DNA of 12,771 bases from Gemmatimonadota bacterium (GTDB lineage: Bacteria; Latescibacterota; UBA2968; UBA8231): NCBI GenBank assembly GCA_002712305.1, contig PATE01000119.1, positions 1-12,771 on the forward strand. Reading direction: 5' to 3'. Each line of letters starts with the position of its first letter. The stretch's first letter is position 1. The notes beneath the pieces were generated by a model. The model ran no database searches. It was given only the letters and a program-made list of their open reading frames with translations, and had not been told where the DNA came from. The translations under genes and the position numbers were made by a program. Shown in pieces: positions 510 to 11,101 of this stretch.

Positions 510-1346
510 ATGATGAACGAGCGGGAACAGTTTCTCTTTGACCTTCAGGGATTCCTCAAAGTCGAGGATTTTCTGGACGCAGAGGAAGTCCAGGCGCTGA
601 ACGATGCCTTTGACGCCAATTGGGATCAGCGCATCGACGACCCGAATACGGCCCCGGCGGGAAGCACGTACGGCCCGGTTCGACGCGGCATGTTCACAGG
701 GATGCTCACGTGGGATCCGCCTCACTGTCAGCCCTTCCGTGATCTTCTCGCCCATCGAAAGCTGATCCCTTATCTGAACACGCTCTTCGGTCGAGGATGG
801 AAGATGGACCACTCCCCATTCATGTTGACGGGCGGCAAGGACACCGAGGGCCTGCGGATTCACGGATCGACATCACGACACTTCGATGACTCCCAGTACT
901 ACGTCTATCGGAATGGTCAGATGCGCTGTGGGATGATCGTGTGTCAGTTTCAACTGGCCGATGTCAACCCCGGAGACGGCGGCATGTGTGTGATCCCAGG
1001 CAGCCACAAGGCCAACTTCCCGTGTCCTGAGCCGATCCTCACATGGGACGAGGATCGTGAGGTTGTGTACCAGGTGCCCTGCAAGACAGGTGATCTGGTC
1101 ATCTTCAACGAGGCGACGCTCCATGGAACGCTCCCCTGGACGGCCGAAAATGAGCGCCGTTCCTTGCTCTATCGGTACAGCCCGAAGGTCGTGCACTTTG
1201 CGGGAGGCACGTATGAAGTGACCCAGCCCGAATGGGTGAGCGAGCTGACCGAGGCTCAACAGGCTGTGCTCGAACCTCCCTATATCTACAATCGTCCCCT
1301 TGTAGAAGATGATGGTGTGAGTGTCGTGCGCCCGCGTCGCGGATGA
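510..1346 (+). CDS. Phytanoyl-CoA dioxygenase (PhyH) family protein
   Basis: A 278-residue cytoplasmic Fe(II)/2-oxoglutarate-dependent oxygenase of the PhyH family. The double-stranded beta-helix iron ligands are visible: H124-F-D126 in TSRHFDDSQYY (the HxD motif), and a distal H205 in EATLHGTLPW. R217 or R218 in NERRSLLYRYSP is the likely 2-oxoglutarate-binding arginine. The family signature GDGGMCVIPGSHKANFP lies at about residues 155-171. No signal peptide is present. Two ATGs (510, 513) follow each other with no strong Shine-Dalgarno; either may be used. The substrate cannot be told from sequence. In bacteria of this type such genes occur in large paralogous sets for oxidation of small organic compounds, as the second copy at 8967-9779 also suggests. 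It is followed by the promoter of the B12 operon, so it is probably transcribed alone. Confidence 0.9.
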   Translation: MMNEREQFLFDLQGFLKVEDFLDAEEVQALNDAFDANWDQRIDDPNTAPAGSTYGPVRRGMFTGMLTWDPPHCQPFRDLLAHRKLIPYLNTLFGRGWKMDHSPFMLTGGKDTEGLRIHGSTSRHFDDSQYYVYRNGQMRCGMIVCQFQLADVNPGDGGMCVIPGSHKANFPCPEPILTWDEDREVVYQVPCKTGDLVIFNEATLHGTLPWTAENERRSLLYRYSPKVVHFAGGTYEVTQPEWVSELTEAQQAVLEPPYIYNRPLVEDDGVSVVRPRRG

Positions 1347-6814: not shown

Positions 6815-7867
6815 CTAGTTTGAGGTGGCCAGCAATCCTTCCTGTTCCTGCTGTTTCTGCCGATTCTGCCAATCATAATCGACAGGCCCATCGTAGAACG
6901 CCGACGGCGTCTCAATGGCCCACATCTGTTTACGAATCAGCCAGTTGTCCGGATCGCAGACGACGGCCTGACGCAACTGCTCTACCGCTTCTTCCCGCTT
7001 GTCACGCGACAATAGCACCCGCGCCAGTTGCAGGCGTGCATCCGCTTCGGCCTCATCGGCGGTCGACTCGCGGGCGTCGGTCTGTTCCATCTGCTGCCAT
7101 GACGGTGGGATCTCTCCTGTTGTTGCCCAGGATTCCAACTCGGCGCGAAAGTCGTCTTCATCGATGTTGACCAGACCGACGGGACGGACCAGCCTCCCCT
7201 GTGGGTCCAGCAGAATCCCGACGGGGACGTACTTCAATGCGCAAAGCTTGCCCACTTCGTTGCGTTGATCGGTCAACCGTGTGAAGGTGACAACCGCTTC
7301 ATCGAGCCAGGGTGTCGAAGCGTCAGCGCCCTGCACATCGCTGGCGATGGAGATGACCCGCACACGATCGCCGAACTGCTCATGAAAAGACTGCCACCCG
7401 GGCAGTTGGCCTCTGCATCCTCACCAGGAGGCCCACATGTAAAAGGCGGCCGGCTTGCCGATGACATGATCAGAGGAAACCAGATCCCCCGAGCCATCTT
7501 CGGGAAGCTGAATTCTGGGGGGTCGGTCTCCGACGCCCAGTCCTACCACCGATTCGCTAAGGCGGCCCACTTGCAGGATGTCGTCATCACACAGAAACCA
7601 CTGCAGGCCGACCGCATCGCCGAAGGCCGCCAACCGGCCGAAGAGAGTGCCATTAACCTGCCTTTGATCGCCGTCACCGAGAGGTACGCAGAGCTCTTCG
7701 TCGTCATCGCGGCAAACCCCCCATCGGTCATCGCCAATCAGCTTCGCTGAACAGCCAACCAACCCAGCGAAGAGCTCCAGCGGCACCCAGGCCTGATCGC
7801 CTTCGCGCATAGGAGCGGGGCTATGGGTCTGCTGATGTCCTTCGAGAACCAGCGTGAGCTCTTTCAT
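6815..7867 (-). CDS. Thioredoxin-like selenoprotein with internal TGA (Sec), U-x-C active site
   Basis: This reads as one 350-residue gene in a single frame from ATG 7867 to TAG 6815, interrupted only by TGA at 7423-7421 (residue 149). A GGAG lies 7 nt before the start. Residues of about 25-65 (AWVPLELFAGLVGC, GDDRWGVC) resemble a copper-amine-oxidase-N/stalk-like domain. Residues of about 115-265 form a TlpA/ResA-like thioredoxin fold: GKPAAFYMWASW, TGA, GCRGQLPGWQSF, VRVISIASD, and the cis-Pro loop KYVPVGILLDPQG. A TPR-like helical tail follows (ARLQLARVLLSRDKREEAVE) and a Q/E-rich end. The TGA replaces the nucleophilic cysteine, and a SECIS-like hairpin follows it, so selenocysteine is the best reading. 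The resolving Cys is two residues away (U-G-C), not three. No signal peptide is seen, so it should act in the cytoplasm in thiol/selenol redox chemistry. The alternative is a nonsense mutation in a Cys gene; the sister gene argues strongly against that. Confidence 0.85.
7390..7406 (-). promoter_or_regulatory. Bacterial SECIS hairpin of the thioredoxin-like selenoprotein
   Basis: Exactly 14 nt after the TGA (7423-7421), the mRNA has ACTGCC, loop CGGGT, GGCAGT: a perfect 6-bp stem with a 5-nt loop containing G residues. Bacterial SECIS elements, read by SelB, are short hairpins just downstream of the UGA with a G-rich apical loop. E. coli fdhF has its minimal hairpin about 11 nt away. Position, size and loop fit, and the geometry equals that of the second gene base for base. 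Confidence 0.8.
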
Positions 7868-8004: not shown

Positions 8005-8952
8005 TCAATCGAGGGCATTCCAGTCGTGGGGTTCGGCTCGCAATGACAGGCGCAGCTCGTGATCTTGCGGCGCATGGCACAGCGCTTCGTCGCAGGCCTG
8101 GAACCGGATCTTCAGGGTGGGATCGATAGCCATCGACTCCGACGTCAGACCACGACAGATCACCTTGATCGTCACTGTCCCTTCGTAGACGGGCAGATCC
8201 TCCTCGAGCACCACCAGATGTTGGATGCGCGTGGACGGGAATCGGATGTCGTCGATGATGAGCAGGTCGCCCTCGACCGCCAGTTCCAGCGTCAAGGGAA
8301 CATACCCTTCGGGCAGCGGTTCCCCATAGATATGCTCCCCCGGCGGAATCTCGATCTCGACGGTGAGCACATTGAGTTGCTGTGGTCGAATCGTCGGCGC
8401 CGTGAACCACGCCCGGATCAGACCATGGCCCGTGTCGAGCCGAACCCCTTTGTGACCGGTATCGAGGCCGAACCGCTCCTGCACGGCGTTGGCCACGGAT
8501 TCGCGGATACGGTGATCGGGGCCGAAGTGTTTGTCGAAAACGATGCCCTGGTCGTCGACGAGAAACATGCCCGGATGGGGGACGCCGAAGTAGGCGTGAT
8601 CGGGCTCGATCTGGTCGTTGAACAGGCCCCACGCGCGAATCACCCGGCTGTCCGTATCCGACAACAGGGGAAACTCGACGCCATATCGTTCGGCAAAACG
8701 AGCGAGAATCTCAGGAGGATCGGGACTGATCGCCAGCACTACGATGCCCTCTTCGGCCAAGCGGGCTTTGTGGGCCTGCAGCTCGACCAGCTGCGTGCGG
8801 CAGAATCCTCACCAGGAGGCCGATCGATAGAACAGGATCAGCGCCCGACGTCCGTGGGCAACCTTCGACAGTCGCACCCAGCGACCGAAGGCGTCGACCA
8901 GTTCGAAGTCTTCGATGCGCGTCCCGATGGATGGGCCAGTGTGATTGGGCAT
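8005..8952 (-). CDS. AhpC/TSA redoxin–DsbD-alpha fusion selenoprotein with internal TGA (Sec), U-x-x-C active site
   Basis: This reads as one 315-residue gene from ATG 8952 to TGA 8005, with an in-frame TGA at 8811-8809 (residue 48). The N-terminal half (about 8-165) is a peroxiredoxin/AhpC-TSA-like redoxin: GTRIEDFELVDAFGRWVRL, ALILFYRSASW, TGA, GFCRTQLVELQAHKARL, IVVLAISPDPPEILARFAE, then PHPGMFLVDDQGIV. U48-G-F-C51 replaces the usual CxxC. The C-terminal part (about 190-308) resembles the DsbD N-terminal (alpha) domain, with IEIPPGEHIYG and a cysteine pair C287-DEAL-C292. A pairing of seleno-redoxin and DsbD-alpha suggests thiol-disulfide electron transfer within one chain. No signal peptide or membrane segment is visible, odd for a DsbD-alpha partner that is normally periplasmic. 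I preferred ATG 8952 because GGAG lies 6 nt upstream. ATG 8967, which forms a TGATG overlap with the dioxygenase gene, is the alternative. Confidence 0.88.
8778..8794 (-). promoter_or_regulatory. Bacterial SECIS hairpin of the redoxin–DsbD-alpha selenoprotein
   Basis: 14 nt after the TGA (8811-8809), the mRNA forms GCAGCT, loop GGTCG, AGCTGC: a perfect 6-bp stem and a 5-nt loop with GGU. The loop recalls the AGGUCU loop of the E. coli fdhF SECIS. Stem sequence differs from the other gene, while spacing, stem length and loop length are the same, as expected of a conserved structure. Confidence 0.82.
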
Positions 8953-8966
8953 GGGCCGCTCCTGCA

Positions 8967-9779
8967 TCAGTACCAGCGATCTTCCGGTGGATCGAAGACA
9001 AACCCGTGGAAGAGGGCTCGACGTTCGGGGCTGAGTCCGTTGTAGAAGGTGGCCGGATACTTCCAGTGCTCGGGATTGCCCACCATCCACGGCAACTCGT
9101 AGGCGTAGTAGAGGAGGATGCGCTGACCGCCTGGACGGGTGGCGGGACCACGCGTGTGCCACACGGCATTTTGAAATAGAATTGCCGTGCCCTGTCCTGC
9201 GCAGATCTGTCGCGCCCCGGGCAGTGTGTCGAATCCCGCCAGTTCGTCTGCCGTAGGTTCTCGATCCTGTCGATGGCTGCCTGGCACGAGCATCAGATTG
9301 CCCTGATCCGGTTCGTCCATGTCGGACAGGAGGTAGCCGATCTTCAGTTGCAGGTGAGGGATATTCGGACGCAGACTGCGGTATCCCCCATCGAAGCCGT
9401 CCATGTGCCATCCGGATTTGCCGTTGGGGCGAACCTCCTGTTCCCAGATCGCGTCGGAGGCGTGGAAGTGCGGCTTCTCGTGCAGCAGGCCACGCACATA
9501 GGGCATGATGGGCGCGTGGTCCATCAGATCGAGGAAGAGCGGATCGTCATCGAGAATATGGAAGATCCGCGTATCATTTCCCTCTTCCTGGATGGCCGAC
9601 ACCTGCAACGGTGTTCCCGACCCGGCGCGTCGTCGCTCGATCGCCCTTGCCAGCGCCGTGCGCAGGGTCTGGACATGGCTCGGTGCGAGAAAACCCTCCA
9701 GCACGACGAACCCATCCCGATCGAATCGATCGCACTCGTCAACGCTGATCTGTTCAGTAGCAGAGGGCGTGCTGCTCAT
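8967..9779 (-). CDS. Phytanoyl-CoA dioxygenase (PhyH) family protein
   Basis: A 270-residue Fe(II)/2-oxoglutarate-dependent oxygenase, second of its family in the window but not closely similar to the copy at 510-1346. Visible motifs are FDRDGFVVLEGFL near the start, the iron-binding H125-M-D127 in GKSGWHMDGFDGGY, GNLMLVPGSHRQD (160-172), a distal H208 in NAVWHTRGPATRPGGQR, and R220 as the likely 2-oxoglutarate ligand. I chose the ATG at 9779 because it overlaps the sulfatase stop (ATGA) and gives the normal start MSSTPSATEQISVDECDRFD. The frame extends to 9893 upstream, but that part is an atypical basic stretch read from sulfatase sequence. It is the fourth gene of the leftward row and is coupled to the selenoprotein gene by a TGATG overlap or a 14-bp gap. 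The substrate is unknown; a role in breaking down an organic compound released by the neighbouring sulfatase is a guess. Confidence 0.92.
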   Translation of the reverse strand: MSSTPSATEQISVDECDRFDRDGFVVLEGFLAPSHVQTLRTALARAIERRRAGSGTPLQVSAIQEEGNDTRIFHILDDDPLFLDLMDHAPIMPYVRGLLHEKPHFHASDAIWEQEVRPNGKSGWHMDGFDGGYRSLRPNIPHLQLKIGYLLSDMDEPDQGNLMLVPGSHRQDREPTADELAGFDTLPGARQICAGQGTAILFQNAVWHTRGPATRPGGQRILLYYAYELPWMVGNPEHWKYPATFYNGLSPERRALFHGFVFDPPEDRWY

Positions 9780-11101
9780 GGTGCCACCTTCGGTTCCTGC
9801 CCCGGAGACTGGCCATCTTTGTCGTTGATGCGCGCCCCGGAAGGCGCCGGTACCGGCCCTTCGAGCAGTGGATCGTCTGTCTCGTCCATCCATCGATGCA
9901 GGTGCATGCGCAGATCCTCTGCGGCCACCTCCGATTCGGCGTCGACGGCCTTTCCGTCGGCACTGATGAGATTGCGGGTTTCATTGGGATCGAAGACCAG
10001 GTCATAGAGCTGTTCCTGTGCCACCGCCCGATCAGCCCAGCCGTGGGCAAGCCAGACATCCTTCGCCGCACTCTCATCACAGTTCGGCCGCACGGGTGTG
10101 GTCTTTTCGTCATCAAAGCGACGGATGTACTTCCACCGGCGGGATCGCACTGCCCGCTGTGGCTCGTATGCCGCGTGAAAGGTCACCTCTGAAAAGACGT
10201 GTCCATTCACCTCTTCCGCCTCTCCACTCACCAGCGGCATCAGCGACGTTCCCTGCAACCACAGGGGTTTGTCGATTTGAAGCAGATCGCAGAGGGTTGG
10301 AAAGATGTCGATCTGCGATACCAGACCATCGCAGACCTTGCCTCCATCGAAGCCGCCGGGGCCACGCATGATGAGGAAGACACCCATACCGTGGTCTGTG
10401 AGATTGCACTTCATCCCCGGATAGGCCAACCCGTGATCGGTGGTGCAGATCACGAGGGTATTGTCTGCCAGACCATTGCGCTCTAGAGCATCCAGTACAC
10501 GCCCGTGCCCCTCGTCCATACGTCGTGCACTCTCGTGATATCCCGCCGTCATACGACGAATCTCCGGTGTATCCGGCAGGGGATCGGGTGTTCGAATGTA
10601 GCGCGAGGCCTCGACCGTGACATCCGGGTAGCGCAGATGCGTCTCCTGATAACCCACGTCGAGGAAAAAGGGCTCGGTGGGCTGGCCATTGAGAAAGGCT
10701 TCGGCGGCAGTTGATACGGTCTTCGCCTGGATGTTCTCGTGCTCGAGTTCCTCGTCGTATCCGATCACCTCGGGGCCATCTTCCCCGGCTGCTACATGCT
10801 GCATGCCCGCCAGAATCGTGCGATATCCCGTCGCATTCAGGGAGGTCACCAGGTGTTGGGCGTAGTCGGTCAGCGCGAATCCGCGGTGGGCCAGACCGAG
10901 CATGCCACTGGAGTGTGCACTCTGCCCCGTCAGCAGGGCAGCGCGACTGGGGGCACAGGTCGGGGCTGCACAGAAAGCCTGGCGAAACAGAACGCCCTGC
11001 TCGGCCAGCCGCTGAAGGTTTGGCGTGGGCACACTGTGCCCCATGGGCTGCACATAACGCCCCGTGTCGTGGGAATGGAGGTAGACGATGTTGGGTCGCA
11101 T
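9776..11101 (-). CDS. Type I sulfatase (formylglycine-dependent, alkaline-phosphatase superfamily)
   Basis: A 441-residue arylsulfatase-type hydrolase that releases sulfate from an organic sulfate ester. The core signature C49-A-P-S-R53 in PTCAPSRAALLTGQ marks the cysteine to be converted to formylglycine. N-terminal metal ligands lie in IVYLHSHDTGRY (5-16), a subgroup variant of the more common DDxG. A second metal site is in TTDHGLAYPGMKCNLTDHG, and the C-terminal region with LYDLVFDPNETRNL is typical of the family. No signal peptide is visible, so the enzyme appears cytoplasmic and would act on small imported sulfated molecules, possibly sugars. It begins 12 bp after the oxidoreductase stop, with AGGAAGG 6 nt before the ATG overlapping that stop. 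It ends in an ATGA overlap with the PhyH gene. The exact substrate cannot be read from the sequence. Confidence 0.94.
   Translation of the reverse strand: MRPNIVYLHSHDTGRYVQPMGHSVPTPNLQRLAEQGVLFRQAFCAAPTCAPSRAALLTGQSAHSSGMLGLAHRGFALTDYAQHLVTSLNATGYRTILAGMQHVAAGEDGPEVIGYDEELEHENIQAKTVSTAAEAFLNGQPTEPFFLDVGYQETHLRYPDVTVEASRYIRTPDPLPDTPEIRRMTAGYHESARRMDEGHGRVLDALERNGLADNTLVICTTDHGLAYPGMKCNLTDHGMGVFLIMRGPGGFDGGKVCDGLVSQIDIFPTLCDLLQIDKPLWLQGTSLMPLVSGEAEEVNGHVFSEVTFHAAYEPQRAVRSRRWKYIRRFDDEKTTPVRPNCDESAAKDVWLAHGWADRAVAQEQLYDLVFDPNETRNLISADGKAVDAESEVAAEDLRMHLHRWMDETDDPLLEGPVPAPSGARINDKDGQSPGQEPKVAP

Follow-up and report, generated by a model that had tools for sequence, protein, structure and literature searches.

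Does the in-frame TGA at positions 8811-8809 of this locus break a gene in two, or is it read as selenocysteine (Sec) within one continuous protein? On the minus strand of the window (the whole stretch of 12,771 nucleotides analyzed here), translation with TGA as U gives a single frame from the ATG at 8952 to the stop TGA at 8007-8005, in which 8811-8809 is the sole internal TGA, just as a sequence-only reading of this DNA had described it. Standard ORF calling splits this redoxin-DsbD-alpha gene into pieces at 9411-8809 and 8760-8005, which is also what that reading had expected of gene callers, namely, two truncated ORFs. The joined protein matches the Pfam family AhpC-TSA (PF00578) with 95.9 bits against a cut-off of 26, with a U-x-x-C motif present, and the family DsbD_N (PF11412) with 27.9 bits (cut-off 25); DsbD_N is likewise above its cut-off in 12 of the 14 family members (27.9-30.4 bits versus 25). 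These two matches, together with the conservation of the TGA and of the flanking protein in 12 other fusion genes, bear out the claim that both halves belong to one protein, and the assignment of residue 48 as Sec in a U-x-x-C motif is supported by the conservation of the codon, by Cys-containing homologues, and by the presence of Sec machinery in the genome. From sequence comparison, we consider it very probable that 8952..8005 encodes a single selenoprotein, which combines a Prx-like UxxC redoxin with a DsbD-alpha-like domain (Table 1).

Table 1. Features of the predicted redoxin-DsbD-alpha selenoprotein gene and of the adjacent partner gene, in window coordinates
Feature	Position	Strand	Remarks
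Predicted redoxin-DsbD-alpha selenoprotein, complete CDS	8005..8952	-	315 residues; ATG 8952, stop TGA 8007-8005
In-frame TGA, predicted Sec48, first residue of U48-G-F-C51	8809..8811	-	SASW-U-GFCRTQL; same codon in 13 fusion genes
AGGAG Shine-Dalgarno	8959..8963	-	6 nt upstream of ATG; direct reading
AhpC-TSA/Prx-like redoxin domain, residues 9-138	8539..8928	-	Pfam, E 2e-27; structure model
DsbD-alpha-like domain, residues 188-301	8050..8391	-	Pfam DsbD_N; Foldseek
C287-x4-C292 pair of DsbD-alpha-like domain	8077..8094	-	Translation, alignment
SECIS-like hairpin of fusion gene, GCAGCT-GGTCG-AGCTGC	8778..8794	-	Starts 14 nt after UGA; G at first two loop positions
Partner gene, TlpA/ResA-like WASW-U149-GC with TPR-like C-terminus	6815..7867	-	350 residues; TGA conservation
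In-frame TGA, predicted Sec149 of partner gene	7421..7423	-	FYMWASW-U149-GC
Partner SECIS-like hairpin, ACTGCC-CGGGT-GGCAGT	7390..7406	-	14 nt after partner UGA

The 13 fusion genes that share the TGA codon, the window's included, are 32-66% identical and conserved at the protein level on both sides of it; a few of the 12 others are cut or damaged further downstream. Relatives were recovered from genome contigs when alignment A1 served as the query, whereas a contig search with the single protein returned none, and no relatives were found in the viral contigs searched. By this search, the Sec (TGA) form of the fusion occurs in Latescibacterota, Poribacteria, one Chloroflexi MAG, and Gemmatimonadota, phyla being named here as in the record titles (L057, from genome G001 of the window's own genus, is titled Gemmatimonadetes, and other genomes of the same family are titled Latescibacterota). 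In the 64 genomes searched from the window's phylum, the fusion is present in several genera, always with TGA at that codon. Acidobacteria hold the same two-domain fusion with Cys at the Sec position, so that the alignment at position 48 that the sequence-only reading had recommended returns Cys in this phylum and Sec in the four named above; many short homologues with Cys exist as well. Between the window and L057, pN was well below pS throughout, the two values being 0.25 and 0.60 before the TGA, 0.14 and 0.62 in the redoxin after the TGA, and 0.24 and 0.72 in the DsbD-like half. When 39 redoxin domains were placed in a tree, the 13 Sec fusion rows all grouped in a single clade (97/93), beside the Acidobacteria Cys fusions.

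The survey of relatives also turned up several irregular copies. L030 has an extra TAG and L034 and L035 have several stops, the damage in these copies consisting of extra TAG or TAA codons and frameshifts; in L058, the DsbD-like half is cut short next to an N run in the assembly. L073 (CALQBJ020000168.1) is titled Bifidobacterium breve and encodes a protein that shares 75-80% identity with one from Acidobacteria, the bin probably being mislabelled or contaminated. A separate family of short, mostly exported Sec redoxins (GYW-U-PHCRRQLGQLQ; L036-L046, including L042, as well as L050 and L052), found in many relatives of the same class, forms its own clade in the tree; most of its rows share the 7-bp hairpin GCAGTTG-GGA-CAACTGC, from which L050 departs.

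Searched for selA, selB, selC, and selD, the genes that the sequence-only reading had proposed to look for, the window's genome yielded all four: selA at 552.9 bits and selB at 350 bits, a tRNA-Sec with anticodon TCA at 66.6 bits (covariance model and ARAGORN), and a selD that has an in-frame TGA of its own at the active-site CGU. Across the 17 genomes behind L057-L073, selA was above the cut-off in 9 of the 11 genomes with the Sec form and in 0 of the 6 with the Cys form. The tRNA-Sec, for which strong scores (>60 bits) alone were counted because the covariance model picked up other long tRNAs as well in each genome, was likewise found in 9/11 versus 0/6. At least one of the two was present in 11/11 Sec-form genomes versus 0/6 Cys-form genomes, although the six Cys-form genomes are mostly Acidobacteria and are therefore not independent events. 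G068 is one of the two Sec-form genomes in which selA did not pass the cut-off; there, part of a selA gene is present at the edge of the contig that also holds the tRNA-Sec.

The hairpin downstream of the UGA is present as described, a perfect 6-bp stem with a GGTCG loop starting 14 nt downstream (8794-8778), and it fits the constraints for bacterial SECIS elements (bSECIS) given in a 2026 review (6 bp, 5-nt loop GGTCG, 20-nt spacing; PMC13188914). Because the peptide QLVELQ tends toward a palindrome, a control was needed in which the downstream stretch was recoded synonymously in the gene's own codon usage; an equal hairpin arose in 11.5% of the recodings of the window stretch (p 0.115), and the corresponding value for the partner gene was p 0.41. 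QLVELQ in GC-rich codon usage thus often yields an equally stable hairpin, and the window hairpin, which says little by itself, was rejected as stand-alone evidence. An Rfam scan of 8700-8850 at a relaxed threshold gave no match to a SECIS family and one chance match only.

The hairpin gains weight when homologues are compared. Near the same offset, Sec homologues have a mean of -7.2 kcal/mol (z -1.9, n=23), in contrast to -2.1 (z -0.3, n=21) in Cys homologues. In-register stem cells are paired in 148/168 cases in Sec rows versus 104/154 in Cys rows, counts which, as the rows are related, are not independent trials. The pair at stem positions 18-26 illustrates the pattern, being T-A in 12/24 and C-G in 11/24 Sec rows but paired in just 9/22 Cys rows. 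In short, the predicted stem shows covariation among the Sec homologues and has broken down in those with Cys. In the window's genome, which was searched for the AhpC-TSA and Sec-machinery families, four Sec genes were found (the redoxin fusion, its neighbor, selD, and a TPGU-type Prx), and in each of them a 6-bp stem of Watson-Crick pairs begins 11-15 nt downstream of the UGA, with a G within the first two positions of the loop. The background for such a hairpin was 36/3711 TGA trinucleotides (1%) in the genome sequence scanned, with limits taken from the published bSECIS model (PMC13188914) and an offset window of 10-16 nt chosen after the examples had been seen. The two Sec genes that lie elsewhere in this genome, the TPGU-type peroxiredoxin L113 (G000:C133:25932-26300) and the selD L025 (G000:C93:47061-47981), each have a SECIS-like hairpin.

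These data also bear on other accounts of the TGA. The window comes from a draft MAG, and damaged copies exist among relatives (L030, L034, and L035), as would suit a nonsense mutation, a pseudogene, or a sequencing error in a Cys-coding gene. However, genomes from four phyla, assembled independently of one another, share this TGA codon, the sequence on either side of it is under purifying selection, and the TGA form is confined to genomes with selA or tRNA-Sec; we consider damage or error very unlikely and rejected it as contradicted by the conservation of the TGA. A genome-wide reassignment of UGA, e.g., to Trp or Gly, would turn the TGA into an ordinary sense codon and could account for in-frame TGAs in two adjacent genes, in selD, and in a Prx elsewhere. 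Yet each of the four TGAs occupies a redox or catalytic Cys position and has a hairpin after it, while the long neighboring genes (HemB, sulfatase, TonB receptor, and oxidoreductase) lack internal TGAs and the fusion gene itself terminates at TGA; nor were in-frame TGAs seen at Trp or Gly positions of housekeeping genes within the window. With the TGAs confined to redox Cys sites and TGA still used as a stop, reassignment was rejected as exceedingly improbable.

Two separate proteins would result if translation stopped at 8809 and restarted at TTG 8760; the product of the restart, 251 residues long, would lack the redoxin active site. Mechanical ORF calling yields exactly these pieces, and premature termination probably happens to some degree in all Sec genes. 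Such a restart would, however, omit the stretch C51...QLVELQ that follows the TGA and is conserved across phyla, and the N-terminal piece would stop within its fold. Given this conserved skipped stretch and incomplete fold, restart was rejected, and we assign it a very small probability; a single selenoprotein remains our preferred reading.

Directly downstream of the fusion gene lies the partner gene (7867..6815), which was missed by the sequence-only reading and is, by prediction, a second selenoprotein. It combines an AhpC-TSA/thioredoxin-like part with TPR-like repeats, and the TGA is conserved in about 20 further genomes from the phylum. With the TlpA/ResA-like UGC selenoproteins (NF041054, WAxxUGC_long) it shares WASW-U-GC, the WAxxUGC motif being present, but it scores 117.3 bits (aligned residues 50-258) against an equivalog cut-off of 300, so that we regard it as a relative rather than a scored member of that family. 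The fusion and the partner lie side by side in just three cases, namely, the window, L057, and L058 (where the neighbor is broken), and apart elsewhere; among the gene neighborhoods of relatives, nothing recurs besides this TlpA-like partner (L057 and L058). Adjacency so limited lends little support to a functional pairing of the two. Two PhyH dioxygenases and a sulfatase are also found near the Sec genes of the window (510-1343, plus strand; 8970-9893 and 9779-11101, minus strand), and the PhyH adjoining the redoxin gene is missing from the corresponding place in L057.

An AF2 model of the fusion protein (pLDDT 90.9, pTM 0.84) gives the redoxin half a Prx fold, with a VIA Z of about 22 to BcpB, Bcp4, and AhpE. 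As these matches covered the redoxin half only, a separate model was built for the C-terminal half (pLDDT 92.3) and used for a search of its own; the top Foldseek matches were DsbD N-terminal domains, with E 4e-6 to 3pfu. When the protein is aligned with AhpE, a true peroxiredoxin, the peroxidatic Cys of AhpE corresponds to C51 and the Thr of its TxxC to Sec48. In true peroxiredoxins, this Thr precedes the peroxidatic Cys or Sec by three residues (PxxxTxxC or TxxU). Since U48 replaces the Thr and C51 aligns with the peroxidatic Cys, the active site of the fusion would be a thioredoxin-like UxxC rather than a peroxiredoxin-like one. The original placement of the TGA at the nucleophilic cysteine of the redoxin family is therefore correct in the thioredoxin/ResA sense, but not in the sense of AhpE, where C51 and not Sec48 occupies the peroxidatic position.

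A DsbD-alpha domain would be expected in the periplasm, but the window protein and L057 leave no room for a signal peptide, and a simple hydropathy scan found no hydrophobic N-terminal stretch in the window protein or in the scorable rows of its 11-row Sec clade, which comprises Latescibacterota, Poribacteria, and Chloroflexi. Across L057-L090, the scan gave a signal-peptide-like hydrophobic N terminus for the majority of Cys homologues, as it did for L066 and L067, the two basal Sec forms. Most simply read, Sec would have been gained in an exported ancestor and export lost afterwards. Nor is the protein a full DsbD transporter, as its 315 residues hold AhpC-TSA/redoxin and DsbD_N only, with neither a membrane domain nor a C-terminal thioredoxin domain; the lack of a signal peptide excludes a DsbD-type membrane donor for the window protein.

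On comparative evidence, we propose that the hairpin 14 nt downstream would direct SelB and Sec-tRNA-Sec to decode UGA 8811-8809, inserting Sec48. Sec48 would attack a peroxide or disulfide substrate, and C51 would resolve the intermediate, giving an Se-S bond that might be reduced by thioredoxin or by the neighboring WASWUGC TlpA-like selenoprotein; in members where they are present, C287/C292 may relay electrons. We infer with moderate confidence that the fusion protein acts as a cytosolic selenol/thiol oxidoreductase.

It is tempting to go further and cast the DsbD-alpha-like domain of the Sec-containing protein as an intramolecular donor, with C287/C292 reducing the U48/C51 Se-S bond. The domain has the fold and the Cys pair of DsbD-alpha, which is known to carry out thiol-disulfide exchange with partners of the thioredoxin fold; C287-x4-C292 aligns with the C-x5-C of DsbD, and the pair is kept in most members, Cys forms included. 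Against this stand the absence of a signal peptide and the loss of the pair in L062, L063, and L065 (YQAYDERTRYTP, or no clear counterpart), in which the Sec redoxin site is intact. The initial description of a DsbD-alpha-like domain with C-x4-C thus holds for the window protein but not for some members of the family, and a relay through C287/C292 would not be essential to the family, as relatives lost the pair. We regard an intramolecular donor as doubtful. A still more elaborate scenario strikes us as quite unlikely: a self-contained cytosolic selenium relay, for which a redoxin would have captured DsbD-alpha, elsewhere an electron carrier of the periplasm, gained Sec while exported, and then lost its signal peptide, the pair now reducing the Se-S bond in-chain with the adjacent selenoprotein as partner.

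How does the predicted cytosolic oxidoreductase compare with known systems? The Sargasso Sea survey (PMC1088965) had already described Prx-like thiol:disulfide oxidoreductase selenoproteins with UxxC, which appear as "Prx-like 1" in PMC2398784; the 2026 review lists them, together with TlpA-type UGC proteins, among the known Sec families (Table 1 of PMC13188914). The window protein has in common with them PF00578, UxxC in place of TxxU, Cys homologues, and a bacterial SECIS within the coding region, but it differs by its C-terminal DsbD-alpha-like domain. Neither this domain nor a Prx-like/DsbD-alpha fusion is named in the parts of the review's family table consulted, which do name TsoB (rhodanese/DsbD fusion-like); the review as a whole contains "DsbD" just once. 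TsoB is likewise a Sec fusion, as is Prx-like 3/Unknown_3 (PMC2398784), in which a Sec redox domain is joined to another; by description, however, both are set apart, the former by a rhodanese domain with UxxxxU and the latter by CxxC plus three Cys. Because the UxxC Prx-like family is known and the fusion is not named there, as far as those parts go, we regard the fusion as a new architecture in a known Sec family and not as a new kind of system.

None of the NCBIfam Sec models was above its cut-off on the fusion protein. Compared with DsbD-alpha itself (PF11412; PDB 1jpe, 1l6p, and 3pfu), the window domain is alike in fold, Pfam match, and a Cys pair near the domain end, but it has C-x4-C instead of C-x5-C, and its chain lacks the DsbD membrane and gamma domains and an export signal. 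The closest counterparts in layout are the Acidobacteria redoxin-DsbD_N fusions (L068-L073), which have the same two domains in the same order but Cys at the Sec position; L071 and L072 have a signal-peptide-like start, and the hosts of these Cys fusions lack selA. In the literature searched, which left most subscription journals outside, we found no description of a Sec-bearing DsbD-alpha fusion, of its export-signal loss, or of its pairing with the neighbor, and no paper containing both "selenoprotein" and "Latescibacterota".

With the fusion described here, a known Sec family gains a two-domain form, and the use of Sec, with several selenoproteins per genome, is documented in Latescibacterota. 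Because both genes are split by gene callers, current annotations of these uncultured bacteria probably lack this redox capacity. Finally, the Sec/Cys pairs across phyla, with or without Sec machinery and with or without a signal peptide, constitute a natural series for the question of why Sec is kept in some lineages.
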